Source: Desmonostoc muscorum FACHB-395 (GTDB lineage Bacteria > Cyanobacteriota > Cyanobacteriia > Cyanobacteriales > Nostocaceae). From it: 64,000 nucleotides of DNA. Below are positions 27,246 through 36,033 of the stretch, piece after piece (position 1 is the first letter of the stretch; every line of letters starts with the position of its first letter). The notes under the pieces were generated by a model. It was not told where the DNA came from. It searched no databases and saw only the letters and a list, made by a program, of their open reading frames with translations. The stretch spans positions 62,001 to 126,000 of the forward strand of contig NZ_JACJSF010000011.1 in NCBI RefSeq assembly GCF_014698035.1, given 5' to 3'. The translations under genes were made by a program, and so were the position numbers.

Positions 27246-28598
27246 CTAACTAATACCACAGGCTGCTAGTTTTACAGCTAAAGCATTCGGGTATCGCCAC
27301 GGTTGAGAACCACCAATCCAAATACGTGAGGGGAGATGACCGATTGGTGCTTTGAGACTAAAATTAAATTCCGAGTTCGCAGAAGTATAATTGTATATAT
27401 GCCAACCAACTTGTTTACAAAAAATTCCATAGTCTCCATTTACATTTTTGTAAATAAGTGTTTGCACACTAAAACCGAAGCGTCCATGACTGTAATTCAC
27501 CCATAAATGGTCAATAGTCTGCAAATGTTGGCAGGGAAATTTATCAACTTCACTACTCAATATATAGCTACCTCTAGGCTTGGCTAGTGCCTGACACATC
27601 AGTTCCCAAGTTTCGCTATCTGCTAATTGCCATTTTCCTTTTGCTAATAAATCATGCAAAGGCTTATAATCAATAGTAGTTAATGTATGATAATTAGAAA
27701 TATTTAGCAGTTTTTTTGGTTGTTCTTCTAGTGTCTGTAACGCTTCTGTGGCAGATTGAAAGCGTTGCGAAACGGCATTTTGTAAAAGTTTATCTAATAT
27801 TTGAGAAAGGCGATCGCTAACAATATTGTTTGCTGGTAAATGTTCTTGCCATACCCAGCGATCGCTAACAATATCGAACAAATCAAAGGGAGAAATAGCA
27901 GTGAGTAAGTAAATACATGTTACACCCAAGCTGTAAAGATCGCTAGCTGGTAATGCTTTTCCCCGCATTTGTTCTGGAGCAACATATTCTGGAGTACCTA
28001 CTATTGTGCCTGTACGAAGTTGCCTGGTATTCGTGGCGAGTTTAGCAATTCCAAAATCTATTAAAACCAAATCTCCTCGAACAGAACGGCGCATAATATT
28101 TTCTGGTTTAATATCTCGGTGAATTACTTGCCGGGAATGGATAAATTGCAGTGTGAGCAATAAACTTTTTAATATCTCCCATATTTGCGGTTCTTTAAAA
28201 ACGCCTTGTTGTTGTAATTCCTGAGCAAGTGTTTGGCCATCAATTAATTCCTCGACGATATAAAACTTTTTATTTTGTTCAAAGTGTGCTAATAACTTGG
28301 GTATTTGAGAGTGTTCTAGTTCATTGAGACGAAGTGCCTCTTGGTTAAATAGGCTGACTGCCTTGTGCCAAACCTCAGTATTTTCCTCTTGGAAACATAG
28401 CTGCTTAATTGCACATTTTGGTTTAGCTGGAAGATGTTCATCAATAGCTAAAAACGTTCTCCCAAAGCCACCGCACCCAATGACAGCGATCGCACGATAT
28501 CGCTGCTTAAGTAACAATTCCTGACCACAACTATGACAAAAACGAGAACTGTCAGAATTTTGCGGACGCAAGCAGTCAATATTGGTACAGTAGCTCAT
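27246..28598 (-). CDS. Ser/Thr protein kinase with N-terminal zinc ribbon and C-terminal GUN4-like domain
   Basis: This protein has 450 residues. A four-Cys ribbon (CTNIDC...CHSC) at residues 4-24 is followed by a Hanks-type kinase: glycine loop VIGCGGFGRTF, Lys in CAIKQL, catalytic HRDIKPENIM, DFG in LIDFGIAKL, and activation-loop end GTPEYVAPEQ. All key residues are present, so it is likely active. Residues about 305-450 resemble GUN4, the porphyrin-binding regulator of Mg-chelatase (DYKPLHDLLAKGKWQLADSE and WVNYSHGRFGFSVQ). The fusion suggests a kinase that responds to a tetrapyrrole, which is inference. There is no membrane segment. Confidence 0.88.
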   Translation of the reverse strand: MSYCTNIDCLRPQNSDSSRFCHSCGQELLLKQRYRAIAVIGCGGFGRTFLAIDEHLPAKPKCAIKQLCFQEENTEVWHKAVSLFNQEALRLNELEHSQIPKLLAHFEQNKKFYIVEELIDGQTLAQELQQQGVFKEPQIWEILKSLLLTLQFIHSRQVIHRDIKPENIMRRSVRGDLVLIDFGIAKLATNTRQLRTGTIVGTPEYVAPEQMRGKALPASDLYSLGVTCIYLLTAISPFDLFDIVSDRWVWQEHLPANNIVSDRLSQILDKLLQNAVSQRFQSATEALQTLEEQPKKLLNISNYHTLTTIDYKPLHDLLAKGKWQLADSETWELMCQALAKPRGSYILSSEVDKFPCQHLQTIDHLWVNYSHGRFGFSVQTLIYKNVNGDYGIFCKQVGWHIYNYTSANSEFNFSLKAPIGHLPSRIWIGGSQPWRYPNALAVKLAACGIS

Positions 28599-28966: not shown

Positions 28967-31900
28967 TTACCAAGGATTACCAACCATTGTGAATCCAGAC
29001 CAATAATAAGGATGGGTAAGTAATTGCTCCCCTTCATCAGCACTGTTAGTAGGTAAAGACAAGTTCCCCACTACTCCCAAACCTTCTAATTGACCATTTT
29101 TAACGTAAATTTCCCCTTTGGCCATAGCTACCTGAGCCTGTCTGAGGGCTTCTGCCTTAATTGGAGCTGTCCTCAAGTTTTGATAAAATTTCGTCATCAA
29201 GGCTGCTGTACCAGCATCATTAACCGACCAAAGACTAGCAACACTAGTTTTCACGCCTGCCAGCACTGCTAAACCTGCAAATCCAAGCTCTGACTCTTCA
29301 TCTCCTAATGCTGTTCTACAAGCACTCAGCACCAGCATTTCAACTTCGGGTTCATTAAAGCGCAACTGTCGTAATTGGTTCAAGCGTAACTTGTCTTCCC
29401 ACAGTTGAATATAAGAATTACTCAAAGCGCCGGTAGTAAAATCGGCATGGGTTGCCATGTGAATAATCCCAAAAGGTTGTTGACGGCGGATAGTTTTGAG
29501 ATTTTCTAAGGTAGCTTGCTTGTCTAACAATAATTTGCCCTGCCAAAGTTTAGACACCAGTGTTGATAACTCCAGAGGAACTGCTGGTAAAGGCTCTTGT
29601 CCTTGTGTACTCTGAGAAACCCCTAGCGCTAAAATTTGAGATTTTTTAATGTCTTTATAAAGAGTGTTAGTCAAGCTGATACTGGGCATCAAACCAATGC
29701 TATATTTTTCTACTAGAAATCCCTTGCCATCATGAAGTGCTGCCATTGGGGTTGAACGTAACCCAATATCTGGTAGAAAAACTAAATTATTGATTTCTCT
29801 TGCTCGTAAATCTGCCTCTAGTGGTGCAATTATCCAGCGATAAAGTTGTTGAGATGGACGCAAATAACCGGTGCGGCGACGGTTTTGTGGACTAACTATT
29901 TGGTCACGAAACTCTTGAGCTACTTGGAGAACTTTGGCTCTGGTCGTTTCTGGGATGCGCTTGCGGATGGGGTCGCCTTTTCCAGTTACTACGACTATTT
30001 CCAGTTGGTCGCTATTCTGCTCTGCTAGAGTATTTAATTGTTTAGTAAATTTTTGAGATTTGCCCAAATTTCTCTCTGGTATTATCTCCACAGGAACAAA
30101 ACTGATGTAAATAAATGCAGGTTTAACACCAGTCGCTTCTTCAATTTTGCGAGCAATTTCTTTGGCATCATCTAGTGTTTTAATTTTAGGAGTCGGGATG
30201 CCTAAATGGTCGGCAAAATCATCTGTGAATTGATCTTCGGGTGTGGGATCGGTATTAATAACGGGGTTGTCAATCTTAGGATTATTGGGGCCAGGGACAT
30301 TCGGTTTACCTGGAGTGCATTGGAATGAGCAAGGGGGAGGATTCGGGGTATCATTCCGGGGAGGAATCTGACTGACGTTGATTCCTACCTGTACAGGTGC
30401 AGAAGACGAAACGCGGTCATTTGCACTAATTACAAAGGCATTTAGTGAGCCATTCACATCAGTCGGAGGGGTATACACCAAAGTATCACCGCTAGATAAG
30501 GTAGTTACCCCAGGAATGACGGGAAGTCCATTGACAGTCAGATTTCCTGTATTCACTGCATTAACTTGGATGGAGGTGATGTCATTATTAGCATCGCTGA
30601 CCAGTGCAGCCAAGCTAGAGAATGTCAAGGTCACTGGTTGATTGGTCTGGGTGTTGGGTAGCGATGAGTTTGCCGTTAATACAGGCGGAGTGTTGACGGA
30701 AGTAATAGTGATGCCGATTGGGGTGCCGATCGCATTTCCACCAGTTGGCAATACTGGAAAGTTACCCGAAGCGATGGTTGTACCGCCTCCCACATCAATT
30801 GTTCCGGCTGTACCATTAGTACTGGTCGCATCACCTACAATAAATGGCACATTACCTGGGCCACCATCATGTCGAATTGTGACAGTACCTCCGGCGATGC
30901 TAGTGGTTACTCCTTCTCCAGAATCGAAAATTCCGCCGGTGGCGATGGTAGTACCTACCCCTATTCCTTGAACTAGTCCGTTTGTCAGCACTTGCACATT
31001 GCCACCTTGAACAGTGTTGCCATTAACAAAATCCGTTGTGGCCTGTGTGTTGATGTTGTTAAAGCGAATTGTGCTGCCAAAGGGATTGGTAGTTCGTAAA
31101 GTAACGTTGCCACCTGTAGCACTTGCAGTCCCATCCACTCCGGTGGCGCTGGCTGAGGTATCAATGCCACCATTAACGGTGATATTCTCTGTGGCAGTTA
31201 AGGTGACTGCGCCAGCCGTGCCAGTAAAATCGCCACCTCCGGTCTTGACTAGATATGAGTTAATCGCCCCAGTGGTAATACTACCTGCTGTAGTTGTTGC
31301 GACTATATCGCCAGCCGTACCTAAGCGAGTGGCATTACTGGAAAAGGAATCGATAGTATCAGTGAGGATATTGCCTGCCGCAGTCAAAGTAACTGTTCCT
31401 GGGATGCCACCACCACTAAAGAAACCACTATCGCTGGTGTTGATCTGATTGAGGGTAATTCCACCATTACTACTTATGACTTGAACATTACCTGCTGAAT
31501 AGCCTTGTCCACTGGCAATAATGTTGCCTGCACTAATATTGCCTGTCGCAAACAAATTTACATTCCCGCTTCTAGCGAAATTACCAGTTGTGTTTAGATT
31601 TCCTAGTAATAAGCTGGCTCCCGAAATGTTAATGGCTCCTCCGCTTGTCTGGATTGTGTTGGTAGGGTCAACAAAGTTTACAGAACCGCTTTGTGAGTTT
31701 AGGCTGAAGCTACCACCACCGCCCAAGGCTAAAGTAGCAACACCATCGGTAGTTACTCCGGGTGTAGCTCCGGTGATGTCATTAATCGTAATATTGCCTG
31801 TAGCTTGTAAGCTGATATTCGCACCCGAAGCTGCGATCGCACCCCATGAAACTGTATTCGCCCCAATATCTGCATCGCCAAAGGCAATATTGCCAGCTGT

Positions 31901-33991
31901 AGCATCAAAAGTACCTACTTCACCATCGATAATAGTCAATGTGCTGGGGTCTAATAATAAAGTGCCAAAGCTGCCATTAGGGGCTGAAGCATCTACTAAA
32001 CCGTTGTAGGTTAAGAAATTTTTGCCTGATACTTCTACAAAACCACCATTGCCAGAATTCGCTCCTCCACGAGCCGAAATTTTACCAAAATATTGAGTTG
32101 TGTCGTTACCCCAAATAATGACGCGTCCGCCGTTTCCATTTAAATTGCTATCGGCATTAATGACGGAGTTGGAATTAATATAAGTTTGATCTGCGTTGGG
32201 TAAAGTTCCCTTACCTTGGTAATCGCCACCAATTAACACAGTACCGCCGCCATTGCTTCCAGAGGCGTTAATATTGGCATCAACCAACGCAACTTTTTTA
32301 CCCAAAGCAGTTACTGTACCGCCTATTTGACTTGATACATCCACTTTGCCTGAAACAATTGTTGTGCCTGGTGTTGTGGGAATCGTCACATTAGATTCTG
32401 TTAATTTTACAGTCCCATTAGGATTGGCAGTTAACCCAGTGTTACCAACTGTGAGCAATTCAGGTATTGAGGCGATGGGAATTGTCCAGTTATTGGGTTG
32501 ATTGCTACTAGAGGCGAGGGGCTGAATTTCCAGACTCAGCAAGTTTCCTGGCTGACTGAGACGCACCCAATTTTGCCCTGGTACGGATGTGATCGAAATC
32601 TGCCCTCCCGGTGCCGAAAGTTGCCCGGTGTTGACTACAGTACCACCCAATATATTCAAATTTTGCCCAACACCTACTGCCAAATTTCCAGCATTTGCGA
32701 TCGCTCCTGGCTGGTTCATACTAAAGGCAAATCCGTTGGGGGTGCCAACTAAAGCAGCGTAGTCATTAACACCAATAGCGTTGAACCAATTGCTGCCAAA
32801 ACCAATGCCATTGGCTGTTGTCACCGTGAAAGCACCAGGTACATTTAAGCTGGCGTTTGATCCAAAAATAAATCCGGCTGGATTCATCAAGAAGAGGTTA
32901 GCATTGCCACCTGTTACCTGAATTAAGCCATTGATAACCGAGGCATTCCCGCCTGTAATTCGACCAAGGATATTTTGCAGCGCCGGACTAGCTTGAAAGT
33001 TGGCGATTTGTTCTGGTGAAATCCCAAATTGTTGAAAGCTGTGAAAGAGGTTAACACCATCTCCAGAAGTTGTACCGCCAGTGATATCCAGTCGATTACC
33101 GTTGGGTGTAACAATTGTGTTTGTCCCATCGGCAGCAGGGACAATTTGTTGTGTTTGGGCTAATGCCGTACTAGTGACTGTCACCAGAGGCAAAATAGCT
33201 AGGACTGAAGCGGCGATTTTGTGTAGTAGAGGTTTTTTATGCCGCAAAATGAAGCGACTTTCGGGCACTTCTACATCGATTTGTAACTTTTCTGCTAATC
33301 CGCGTCGCCAAAGTGCTTGAGCGATCGCCTTCTGTGACCAGAGTATTTGTTCACTTTTTCTAGTAACAGAGATGCTTTGAGAATGATTTCGGTACAAATA
33401 CAGTGGCTCTTCAACTCGGCGCACTTGAGCTACTTCTGAAAGTCGGAGACACAAGTCGTAATCTTCAGCACATCGGAACGATTTATTAACACCTCCCACC
33501 TGGTCGTAAGCTGAACGGCGCATCAGGCGGAAGTGGAAAGTCATGAAGTTTACCAACAGCCCCTCTGGGGAGTAAGGAATGTCACAGCGATGACCGTAGC
33601 CGATGACTTGACTTTTTTCATCAATATTTAAGTAATCGGTATAAACAAATCCTGTTTCTGGGTGGCGATTAAGTACTGTAGCAGTTTGGGCGAGGGCGGT
33701 AGGGGCTAGGATATCATCACTGTCTACGATACCGATGTAACTGCCGCTAGTTTGAGCGATCGCTATCTTACAAGCCGCAGAAACTCCTTGATGCTGTGCT
33801 TCTACTACCCGCACTCGCCTATCTTGTTGAGCATAAGCGTTTGCGATCGCCACTGATCCATCTGTGGAGCCATCATCCCAAATTAGTAGCTCAAAGTCTT
33901 GCCATGTTTGCGCTAATACGCTGGCGATCGCTACCCCAAGGTAAGACTCCCGGTTGTAATTGACGATGACTATGGAGATCAGTGGTGGCAT
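28967..33991 (-). CDS. Fusion protein: family 2 glycosyltransferase + two-partner-secretion exoprotein + CHAT protease domain
   Basis: This protein has 1674 residues from ATG 33991; a GTG at 34024 is upstream. Residues 1-240 form a GT2 glycosyltransferase (SIVIVNYNRESYLGVAIASV, DSDD metal site, EDYD base). A hydrophobic signal (about 257-278, ending STALAQ) follows with no stop codon. About 280-530 is a TPS/haemagglutinin secretion domain (NPAGFIFG), then a Gly/Asn-rich beta-helix to about 1090 and a cadherin-like segment. The last 330 residues form a CHAT caspase-like domain with the dyad His near 1515 (IHMATHADF) and Cys near 1558 (VLSACRTALG). A GTG at 33268 could start a separate exported product. 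The TpsB gene is divergent. Confidence 0.9.
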   Translation of the reverse strand: MPPLISIVIVNYNRESYLGVAIASVLAQTWQDFELLIWDDGSTDGSVAIANAYAQQDRRVRVVEAQHQGVSAACKIAIAQTSGSYIGIVDSDDILAPTALAQTATVLNRHPETGFVYTDYLNIDEKSQVIGYGHRCDIPYSPEGLLVNFMTFHFRLMRRSAYDQVGGVNKSFRCAEDYDLCLRLSEVAQVRRVEEPLYLYRNHSQSISVTRKSEQILWSQKAIAQALWRRGLAEKLQIDVEVPESRFILRHKKPLLHKIAASVLAILPLVTVTSTALAQTQQIVPAADGTNTIVTPNGNRLDITGGTTSGDGVNLFHSFQQFGISPEQIANFQASPALQNILGRITGGNASVINGLIQVTGGNANLFLMNPAGFIFGSNASLNVPGAFTVTTANGIGFGSNWFNAIGVNDYAALVGTPNGFAFSMNQPGAIANAGNLAVGVGQNLNILGGTVVNTGQLSAPGGQISITSVPGQNWVRLSQPGNLLSLEIQPLASSSNQPNNWTIPIASIPELLTVGNTGLTANPNGTVKLTESNVTIPTTPGTTIVSGKVDVSSQIGGTVTALGKKVALVDANINASGSNGGGTVLIGGDYQGKGTLPNADQTYINSNSVINADSNLNGNGGRVIIWGNDTTQYFGKISARGGANSGNGGFVEVSGKNFLTYNGLVDASAPNGSFGTLLLDPSTLTIIDGEVGTFDATAGNIAFGDADIGANTVSWGAIAASGANISLQATGNITINDITGATPGVTTDGVATLALGGGGSFSLNSQSGSVNFVDPTNTIQTSGGAINISGASLLLGNLNTTGNFARSGNVNLFATGNISAGNIIASGQGYSAGNVQVISSNGGITLNQINTSDSGFFSGGGIPGTVTLTAAGNILTDTIDSFSSNATRLGTAGDIVATTTAGSITTGAINSYLVKTGGGDFTGTAGAVTLTATENITVNGGIDTSASATGVDGTASATGGNVTLRTTNPFGSTIRFNNINTQATTDFVNGNTVQGGNVQVLTNGLVQGIGVGTTIATGGIFDSGEGVTTSIAGGTVTIRHDGGPGNVPFIVGDATSTNGTAGTIDVGGGTTIASGNFPVLPTGGNAIGTPIGITITSVNTPPVLTANSSLPNTQTNQPVTLTFSSLAALVSDANNDITSIQVNAVNTGNLTVNGLPVIPGVTTLSSGDTLVYTPPTDVNGSLNAFVISANDRVSSSAPVQVGINVSQIPPRNDTPNPPPCSFQCTPGKPNVPGPNNPKIDNPVINTDPTPEDQFTDDFADHLGIPTPKIKTLDDAKEIARKIEEATGVKPAFIYISFVPVEIIPERNLGKSQKFTKQLNTLAEQNSDQLEIVVVTGKGDPIRKRIPETTRAKVLQVAQEFRDQIVSPQNRRRTGYLRPSQQLYRWIIAPLEADLRAREINNLVFLPDIGLRSTPMAALHDGKGFLVEKYSIGLMPSISLTNTLYKDIKKSQILALGVSQSTQGQEPLPAVPLELSTLVSKLWQGKLLLDKQATLENLKTIRRQQPFGIIHMATHADFTTGALSNSYIQLWEDKLRLNQLRQLRFNEPEVEMLVLSACRTALGDEESELGFAGLAVLAGVKTSVASLWSVNDAGTAALMTKFYQNLRTAPIKAEALRQAQVAMAKGEIYVKNGQLEGLGVVGNLSLPTNSADEGEQLLTHPYYWSGFTMVGNPW

Positions 33992-34197
33992 CGAAGTATT
34001 CCCAAGTTTTCTACCTGTTACCACAATATAATGCTACGGGCTATCACTTAGAAAAAATTGCTGTTAATTATTGTTTTAGTTACAAATCTTCTGAAATTTG
34101 AATGTCAAAAATATGATATTGAAATATTCATACAGCCATAGCACACTCAAAAATCAAGATCAGCCCAGTTGTTAAATAAGGCACCCACTGAGGATAA

Positions 34198-36033
34198 ATG
34201 AGAAAAGAAACAGAAACTGGTATTAAGCCGAAAACAACTAATCAGAAAAGCATTGTCTGTTTCTCTCATCAGTTAAACACTTGGCAAACTCTAGCAACTA
34301 CTAGATTAAATAAGCACAGTTTCAGTTTCCAGTGTGGCTTGCTAATTCTGCCTGCGGTCTGGATTGTAACTGCAAATGGACTGAGAGCTACGGCGAATAT
34401 ATTGACACCAGACTCAACTCAAAAGATTATTCAGCCAGAGTTACAAATAGTACAGGCATCAGAAACTACCCCGGAAAATAGCCCCAATCAAGCCGAACCC
34501 AATCCCCAACCAGAAACACCACAACGAATTCGGGTTCGCAAAATCCAGGTTGTAGATAGCACAGTTTTTAATGAAAATGACTTTAATCCAGTTGTCAAAC
34601 CCTTTGAAGACCGGGACTTAACTTTAGAAGAAATCAGACAAGCCGCAGATGCTATTACCCAGCTTTACTTAAATAAAGGCTATATAAATTCCAGAGCAGT
34701 TCCAGACATTCAACAACCTAGTACCGCCGATGGTGTTGTGGTAATTAGGGTAATTGAAGGGCGTTTGACAGAGATTGAGATCGAAGGAACGCGACGATTA
34801 AACCCATCTTATGTTCGTAGTCGCATCCAATTAGGTGCCGGCACTCCTCTGAATACTAGTAAGCTCGAAGATCAACTGAAGCTGTTGCGACTCGATCCCT
34901 TATTTACAAATGTAGAAGCACGTCTGCGTCCAACGGGTAAGGTTGGTCAAAGTGTTCTCATTGTCAGAGTTGAAGAGGCTAACCCTTTAACTGGTAGCTT
35001 GGGTGTAGATAATTATTCGCCTCCGAGTATTGGTGCGGAAAGATTAGGTATTGAACTGCGCGATCGCAATTTAACTGGGATGGGAGATGAGTTAGCAGGC
35101 TCCTATTACCACACCCTTTCTGGTGGTTCCGATGCCTTTGATTTTAGCTATCAAGTTCCTGTGAACGCCATGAATGGCAAGGTGCAGATTAGAGCCGCAT
35201 TTAATCGCAACGAAATCACTGAGGCACCCTTTGATGCTTTTGGCATTCGCGCCAACCAGGATCTTTATGAAATCAATTATCGTCAACCATTGATGCGATC
35301 GCCAAGAGAAGAATTTGCTCTATCTTTGGGATTTACCTATCAAGATGGTCAAACCTTCCTCTTCGATAACCTGGCAACCCCCTTTGGTATTGGGCCTGAT
35401 GCCAATGGCGTTAGCCGCACCAGTGTAATTAAATTTGGTCAAGATTATATTAAGCGCGAACCTCAAGGAGCTTGGTTTTTGCGATCGCAATTTAATTTTG
35501 GCATTGACGTATTAGATGCAACTATCAACAATGACCCCATACCCGATGGTCGCTTTTTCAGTTGGTTGGGTCAAATACAGCGCGTGCAGCAACTCAGCGC
35601 CGATCATCTCTTACTTATCCAAGCAGACTTACAGCTAACACCAGATAGCCTTTTACCCTCCCAGCAATTTGTGATTGGCGGTGGACAGTCTGTAAGGGGA
35701 TATCGCCAAAATATCCGCTCAGGGGATAATGGATTTCGTGTAGCAGTAGAAGATCGGTTCACAGTCCAGCGTAATGAATCTGGATTATCCATAATTCAAC
35801 TTGCGCCATTTCTAGACATGGGATCTGTCTGGAATCAGTCTAATAATCCCAATCGGCTGCCCGATCAAACTTTTTTGGTGGGTGCAGGCTTAGGATTATT
35901 ATGGAATCAGGCAATGGGAATTGATAATCTGTTTTTGCGGCTCGATTATGGATTTCCATTTATCGATCTGAGCGATCGCGGCAATAACGCTCAGGATGAT
36001 GGCTTTTACTTTAGCCTTCGCTATCAACCTTAG
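34198..36033 (+). CDS. TpsB outer-membrane two-partner secretion transporter (ShlB/FhaC/HecB family)
   Basis: This protein has 611 residues. A signal peptide lies near residues 45-70 (CGLLILPAVWIVTANGLRA). POTRA domains follow from about 105 (RVRKIQVVDSTVFNENDFN, NKGYINSRAVPDIQQPS, VIEGRLTEIEIEGTRRL), then a 16-strand beta-barrel. The conserved loop 6 motif VRGYR is in SVRGYRQN near residue 503. The protein ends in an aromatic-rich strand (DDGFYFSLRYQP), a typical outer-membrane C-terminus. It exports the partner TpsA domain, almost certainly that of the divergent gene at 28967-33991; their starts are about 200 bp apart. Confidence 0.94.
   Translation: MRKETETGIKPKTTNQKSIVCFSHQLNTWQTLATTRLNKHSFSFQCGLLILPAVWIVTANGLRATANILTPDSTQKIIQPELQIVQASETTPENSPNQAEPNPQPETPQRIRVRKIQVVDSTVFNENDFNPVVKPFEDRDLTLEEIRQAADAITQLYLNKGYINSRAVPDIQQPSTADGVVVIRVIEGRLTEIEIEGTRRLNPSYVRSRIQLGAGTPLNTSKLEDQLKLLRLDPLFTNVEARLRPTGKVGQSVLIVRVEEANPLTGSLGVDNYSPPSIGAERLGIELRDRNLTGMGDELAGSYYHTLSGGSDAFDFSYQVPVNAMNGKVQIRAAFNRNEITEAPFDAFGIRANQDLYEINYRQPLMRSPREEFALSLGFTYQDGQTFLFDNLATPFGIGPDANGVSRTSVIKFGQDYIKREPQGAWFLRSQFNFGIDVLDATINNDPIPDGRFFSWLGQIQRVQQLSADHLLLIQADLQLTPDSLLPSQQFVIGGGQSVRGYRQNIRSGDNGFRVAVEDRFTVQRNESGLSIIQLAPFLDMGSVWNQSNNPNRLPDQTFLVGAGLGLLWNQAMGIDNLFLRLDYGFPFIDLSDRGNNAQDDGFYFSLRYQP

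Follow-up and report, generated by a model that had tools for sequence, protein, structure and literature searches.

A GT2 glycosyltransferase, a TPS secretion domain and a CHAT module in one reading frame of Desmonostoc muscorum

How might a cell use a single gene in which a glycosyltransferase (GT) stands in front of an exported protein, with the export signal buried between the two? The question is raised by a stop-free frame on the reverse strand (28967-34024, 1685 amino acids counted from GTG 34024) of the window, that is, the whole stretch of 64,000 nucleotides that was analysed. The host genome comprises 9.43 Mb in 260 contigs, and the closest named records are from Nostoc. The frame encodes, in this order, a GT2 domain, an internal TpsA-type signal, a TPS domain, a long passenger and a C-terminal CHAT module (Table 1). 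An earlier note on this DNA had described such a fusion in one uninterrupted frame; it is confirmed by the frame itself, by the relatives described below and by Pfam, which matches Glycos_transf_2 (residues 17-176, 3.9e-31), TPS (PF05860, 299-494, 1.4e-42) and CHAT (1389-1683, 8.8e-75), while NCBIfam adds adhes_NPXG at 327-404 (4.6e-22). The TPS domain and the nearby TpsB gene (34198-36033) mark the second half as a TpsA.

Upstream of ATG 33991, many relatives lack an in-frame start codon, which makes this ATG the likely start, and the conserved block that precedes it is likely to be the promoter and ribosome-binding region of the GT start. The frames of the fusion gene and of TpsB are 173 bp apart; at two of the related loci, the region between the genes holds repeat-like insertions (L061:8670-9003 and L070:8886-9268). 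On the downstream side of the fusion gene lies an ORF that appears kinase-like by eye (window 27246-28598), a relative of which was found in only L059 among 40 loci.

Table 1. Features of the fusion gene and its surroundings in window coordinates; residues follow the P0001 numbering, counted from GTG 34024.
Feature	Position	Strand	Remarks
GT2-signal-TPS-passenger-CHAT polyprotein gene	28967..33991	-	starts at ATG 33991; open frame extends to GTG 34024
Complete GT2 (GT-A) domain	33239..33991	-	residues 12-262
Internal TpsA-type signal peptide (predicted)	33149..33238	-	residues 263-292; ends STALAQTQ
TPS secretion domain with NPxG motif	32543..33130	-	residues 299-494; Pfam, NCBIfam, model
Repetitive passenger	30260..32524	-	residues 501-1255; Cys-free apart from one pair
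Cys-x3-Cys (C1232, C1236)	30317..30331	-	Pro-rich linker ahead of CHAT module
Separase/TPR-CHAT-type protease module	28967..30259	-	residues 1256-1685 and stop codon; Pfam, model, fold matches
Catalytic-type His1526	29447..29449	-	H in 41/41 aligned CHAT modules
Catalytic-type Cys1569	29318..29320	-	C in 41/41 aligned CHAT modules
Conserved upstream block	33992..34130	-	strong conservation across 10 aligned members of the genus
TpsB/Omp85-type transporter gene	34198..36033	+	divergent; NCBIfam BamA/Omp85-type matches; conserved neighbour

Distribution and history of the fusion

The fusion gene is widespread. A query made of the GT and the junction was run against 59 genomes, 35 of them from the same genus with the own genome counted in. 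Long GT-led frames at 71-91% identity were found in 24 other same-genus genomes, which places the fusion in 25 of the 35; the same search found no such frame in the remaining 10. The order GT, TPS, passenger, CHAT within one frame was confirmed in all of the 24 except G024, where the contig ends ahead of CHAT, and 23 of them have TpsB upstream in the opposite orientation. Beside many of the distant members of the fusion family, TpsB was not seen. An order-wide search used a profile (A1) covering GT, signal and TPS and gave one-frame matches over both halves in at least 34 of 388 genomes, spanning at least six families in the search coding (f1, f3, f12, f15, f20, f33); the same-genus genomes of that search also include some without a both-halves match (G202, G274, G299, G034 and G415). 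A draw across the phylum gave at least 6 of 386 genomes at E <= 1e-140. Both counts are lower bounds, since four candidates were scored per genome and the fusion-bearing G215 was missed in the phylum draw. The named carriers include Nostoc, Desmonostoc, Anabaena, Tolypothrix, Plectonema, Stenomitos, Leptolyngbyaceae, Oculatella, Coleofasciculus, Trichocoleus and Xenococcaceae.

Loci L059-L214 hold 72 distinct frames with GT and TPS, a number that includes the decayed L085 and L191 (L134 is a named copy of L098). CHAT is reached by 65 of them, and five stop where their contig does. The other two, L098 and L147, are broken frames, and in each locus a frame bearing CHAT lies further downstream. 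The frame and the gene layout are real, and they are neither an artefact nor recent. The earlier note had considered that the fusion might be a recent one, which the several cyanobacterial families carrying it do not bear out. It had also named as a refuting case that homologues all keep GT and TpsA in separate genes. The relatives do not show this: of the loci looked at, L155 alone has GT and TPS-CHAT as separate tandem frames, on a contig of a metagenome-assembled genome (MAG) with a coverage of 4 in its title and with the CHAT frame broken as well.

TPS-CHAT genes without an in-frame GT are common, making up 18 of 79 rows in the trees, L155 and L179 included. In a quick tree of TPS+CHAT, GT-bearing and GT-less rows are mixed, the starred branches require the GT label to change at least four times, and L155 is placed among fused kin. 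In a quick tree of the GT, only one label change is forced, which is compatible with one origin; both trees have long branches, and the GT row of L088 (a second GT) has an extreme one. An old fusion with repeated loss of the GT appears to fit best, and three decaying GTs provide examples. In L085 (G058) and L191 (G316), the C-terminal half of the GT is gone; in L179 (G235), what is left is the conserved leader and about 25 GT residues (local score 79; best of 2000 shuffles 48). The GT is thus dispensable, since these three loci shed parts of it and kept the rest of the gene, and since GT-less rows are so frequent.

The start of translation and the internal signal

The earlier note had proposed that GTG 33268 could serve as a separate start for the exported part. 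This codon is residue 253 (242 when counted from ATG 33991), and no aligned relative shares the GTG; of 27 relatives, 14 have TTG at this position and 13 have no start codon. TTG is a permitted rare start codon, and at residue 253 it may be an occasional weak internal start. In L076 and L077, no ATG, GTG or TTG occurs across the stretch aligned to residues 225-300. The codon also sits inside the GT domain model, within its final beta-hairpin, and a separate start that is unconserved and falls inside the modelled GT fold is not supported.

The decayed loci are informative on the same point. The frame from the GT start continues into the signal peptide in L085, L191 and L179 alike, and the linker insertions of L073, L075 and L078-L081 preserve it too. 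Near the signal, start-type codons are few: L085 and L191 have a single TTG each, and the ATG and GTG codons of L179 all fall within the hydrophobic stretch itself. Since three decayed GTs keep their start and their frame into the signal, the expressed form is probably one chain from the GT start; judged by comparison among relatives, translation from the GT start is well supported.

The hydrophobic stretch that ends in STALAQ lies between GT and TPS; by hydropathy it is a signal-like segment directly ahead of the TPS domain, and yet it is internal, behind the GT. A hydrophobic segment follows the GT in all 72 fused linkers (best hydropathy at least 1.72), with the TPS domain next. Stand-alone frames of the GT family are built differently: 18 of them, with tails shorter than 60 residues, stop 23-59 residues beyond the profile match, in most cases just past a GRFxLR-like motif and near the place where the modelled GT domain ends (residue 262). 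None of the 18 has a hydrophobic tail (hydropathy over 12 residues at best 1.04). In the structural model, the GT-A fold takes in the GRFILR strand, the signal region is of low confidence, and the TPS helix comes next. Gln292 is invariant (34/34), and the segment ends in an AQ-type boundary of the kind that the N-termini of this genome's other TpsA proteins show. A match to an AXA-type expression in 71 of 72 linkers was discarded as evidence because the pattern is too loose. The exported character that the earlier note had assigned to the second half is supported, secretion of the protein being a prediction.

The two predicted enzymes and the passenger

The N-terminal half has the features of a GT2 enzyme, namely a GT-A fold in the model, a DXD motif (101-103) and the catalytic-type Asp188, its activity being predicted. 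The Asp columns typical of GT-A enzymes are retained in 32-34 of 34 sequences. The GT is under purifying selection, with omega values of 0.13-0.46 versus 0.09-0.15 for CHAT (8 close, partly overlapping pairs). Its closest solved structure is the K4 chondroitin polymerase K4CP, a polysaccharide enzyme, followed by other GT2 enzymes. Function by association was read from the neighbourhoods of its close stand-alone relatives. In 11 of 25 GT-alone loci (L086, L087, L089, L090, L091, L092, L095, L097, L158, L170 and L177), the largest neighbouring ORF within 6 kb is an exported repeat protein with cadherin, Ig, RTX, CARDB, FG-GAP or RHS domains, compared with 1 of 20 distant GT2 controls at 29-36% identity (L228, Calx-beta); cases were scored at E <= 0.01 or 1e-5 and controls at 1e-10, which all 11 positives pass, the controls were picked by hand down the search list and are not every eligible one, and the sets are non-independent, with several homologous pairs among the cases and several controls sharing one cluster type. 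The controls mostly adjoin ABC-transporter, kinase/chain-length or GT genes.

In the other 14 of the 25 loci, the largest neighbour is not an exported repeat protein. Negatives include loci where longer overlapping ORFs displaced the GT frame (L154, L157, L168, L169), DUF3466 neighbours (L083, L096) and phage-tail neighbours (L157, L168, L169); L172 was omitted as a named copy of L083, and L155 for its TPS-CHAT neighbour. The neighbourhoods favour protein modification over polysaccharide synthesis as the likely role of the subfamily. L086:5707-10392 encodes one protein with DUF4915, GNAT, GT2, TPR and GT41 regions, 38 bp from a cadherin/RTX gene, and L087:3278-7777 encodes a GT2-bearing protein of similar length that also adjoins a cadherin/RTX gene. 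In L157, L168 and L169 (Acidobacteriota, Desulfosarcinaceae), close GT2 relatives lie near tail sheath and minor tail protein genes.

The passenger is rich in G, N, T and S, with 1.3% Lys. The long beta-helix read into it by the earlier note is a prediction from this composition and from the modelled helix of the TPS domain. At the C-terminus, the intact His-Cys dyad noted earlier holds, both residues being invariant in all 41 modules, and with the predicted CHAT fold it places the module in the CHAT class. No sequence relative of the module was found in the PDB at E <= 0.1 (best 0.45), and fold comparison was therefore used; the fold matches of the model (pLDDT 89.4) put the module with the separase/TPR-CHAT type. 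A C-x3/4-C pair precedes CHAT in 42 of 65 fused relatives versus 2 of 18 other relatives and is absent from 23 of the 65. The surface-displayed protease of the earlier note may hold, but such a pair would also fit a periplasmic retention of CHAT.

The view that CHAT proteins usually stay inside the cell is not supported in this genome: 8 of its 18 other TPS genes have a CHAT gene nearby, and in all eight CHAT proteins visual inspection of the first 75 residues finds a hydrophobic stretch that looks like a signal. These pairs are found at L198-L205, and in L198 the TpsA and CHAT frames overlap by four bases. The genome also has a CHAT gene cluster (G000:C199:2398-34657) with 9 CHAT matches in 8 frames of 474-2127 amino acids over about 32 kb.

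What the fused chain might do

The reading we prefer, with a probability of roughly 45%, is that the exoprotein receives sugar from its own GT in the cytosol, that signal peptidase then parts the two, and that CHAT acts past the inner membrane. The gene would yield one chain with translation beginning at the GT2 domain, which would fold in the cytosol, the compartment that contains the sugar nucleotides. The TpsA-type signal peptide would steer the TPS domain, the passenger and the CHAT module into the Sec channel, and the GT would add sugar to its own still-cytosolic passenger while both are one molecule. Signal peptidase would then cut the GT from the exoprotein, and TpsB would export the passenger. 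CHAT, as a separase-like Cys protease, would either be held in the periplasm via the Cys pair or be displayed outside, its most likely substrates being its own or neighbouring exoproteins. The analysis shows the architecture, its conservation, the selection on GT and CHAT and the predicted CHAT fold, whereas glycosylation, cleavage, the final place of CHAT, its protease activity and its substrate are the steps that we infer in this scheme. Several observations weigh against it: the closest solved structure to the GT is that of a polysaccharide enzyme, the GT is dispensable, 10 of the 35 same-genus genomes gave no such frame, 14 of the 25 stand-alone loci have another kind of largest neighbour, TTG occupies residue 253 in 14 of 27 relatives, and 23 of 65 fused relatives lack the Cys pair. 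More tentative is the fuller picture of a self-modifying polyprotein found across several filamentous cyanobacterial families, in which GT2 glycosylates its nascent passenger in cis, signal peptidase severs the chain and CHAT, exposed outside or kept in the periplasm by a disulfide loop, cuts the sugar-bearing fibre to its final form. A single chain would then encode glycosylation, export and control by proteolysis.

An unlikely but serious competitor has signal peptidase splitting the chain to free an ordinary cytosolic enzyme, for example one for a surface polysaccharide, that is merely dose-matched to the exoprotein. The polysaccharide synthases among the closest structures speak for it, as do L092, L094 and L177, stand-alone relatives with GT or sulfotransferase neighbours or fusions; this GT subfamily, however, often adjoins exported repeat proteins, unlike the control GT2s, and the complete fused frames are TPS-CHAT. 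By analogy with FHA, the GT might instead be mainly a folded N-terminal brake on Sec export, with catalysis unneeded. The signal extension of FhaB is described as slowing export and delaying cleavage (PMC5422565), and the shortened GTs of L085 and L191 are still in frame; the retained Asp columns and the purifying selection nevertheless indicate catalysis, and L179 keeps only about 25 residues of the GT; this idea is quite improbable.

It is also very improbable that the internal segment stays uncleaved and that a cytosolic GT anchors the exoprotein in the inner membrane with TPS and CHAT in the periplasm. The Cys pair would favour a periplasmic CHAT here too, but the AQ-type boundary is that of TpsA N-termini in the same genome, and TpsB is a conserved neighbour within the genus. 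An assembly artefact or a chance recent fusion, to which the tandem frames of L155 might lend a hint, has a negligible probability, as the fusion is common to independent assemblies of many genera, and L155 nests among fused kin with its own CHAT frame broken.

With glycosylation before export preferred, the closest working parallel, by analogy, is the HMW1A/HMW1B/HMW1C system of Haemophilus influenzae, which likewise combines a TpsA with a Sec signal, a TpsB and a dedicated glycosyltransferase (PMC3983070, PMC5422565), and in which HMW1C modifies HMW1 in the cytoplasm ahead of Sec export (PMC3983070). The likeness is functional only, since HMW1C is a separate protein of family GT41, whereas the enzyme here is GT2 by Pfam and is fused ahead of an internal signal. 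HMW1 is anchored by two C-terminal Cys residues, and the present protein likewise has a Cys pair, ahead of CHAT, a domain that goes unmentioned for HMW1 in the available text of the two papers (PMC3983070, PMC5422565). Polymorphic toxins with caspase-like domains also join an exported protein to a caspase-like peptidase, for which, at the toxin C-terminus, an effector or a processing role is considered possible (PMC3482391). Unlike them, and unlike the variable C-terminal toxins of the CDI type, the present family has a constant CHAT (65 of 65 frames that reach this region, or 65 of 72 with the other seven cut or broken), and its GT stands ahead of the signal.

Compared with the TPR-CHAT protein Csx29 and with separase, CHAT is here linked to a secretion domain and not to CRISPR or cohesin, and Pfam finds no TPR in this protein, unlike in TPR-CHAT. 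Sequence identity to the gingipains RgpB and Kgp is low (12% and 9%), and gingipains use another route, type IX secretion. In the literature searched, which left subscription journals mostly outside, no published account of GT-TPS-CHAT was found, nor any paper on CHAT with filamentous hemagglutinin or two-partner secretion in cyanobacteria, on a CHAT domain with a hemagglutination activity domain, or on a flagellin with a GT domain as a precedent. Bradyrhizobium has a cytochrome polyprotein, which is not used here as support. The available text of PMC8283722 mentions CHAT once, alongside orthocaspase, and that of PMC7475262 gave no match.

If the preferred reading is true, each enzyme would come tied to a single substrate and export signal, which would neatly explain how a glycosyltransferase reaches a substrate that is exported, and the gene would be a clear bacterial case of an internal signal peptide splitting a polyprotein. 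TPS and CHAT genes are repeatedly paired in this genome, and separase-like CHAT proteases would be placed past the inner membrane in cyanobacteria.
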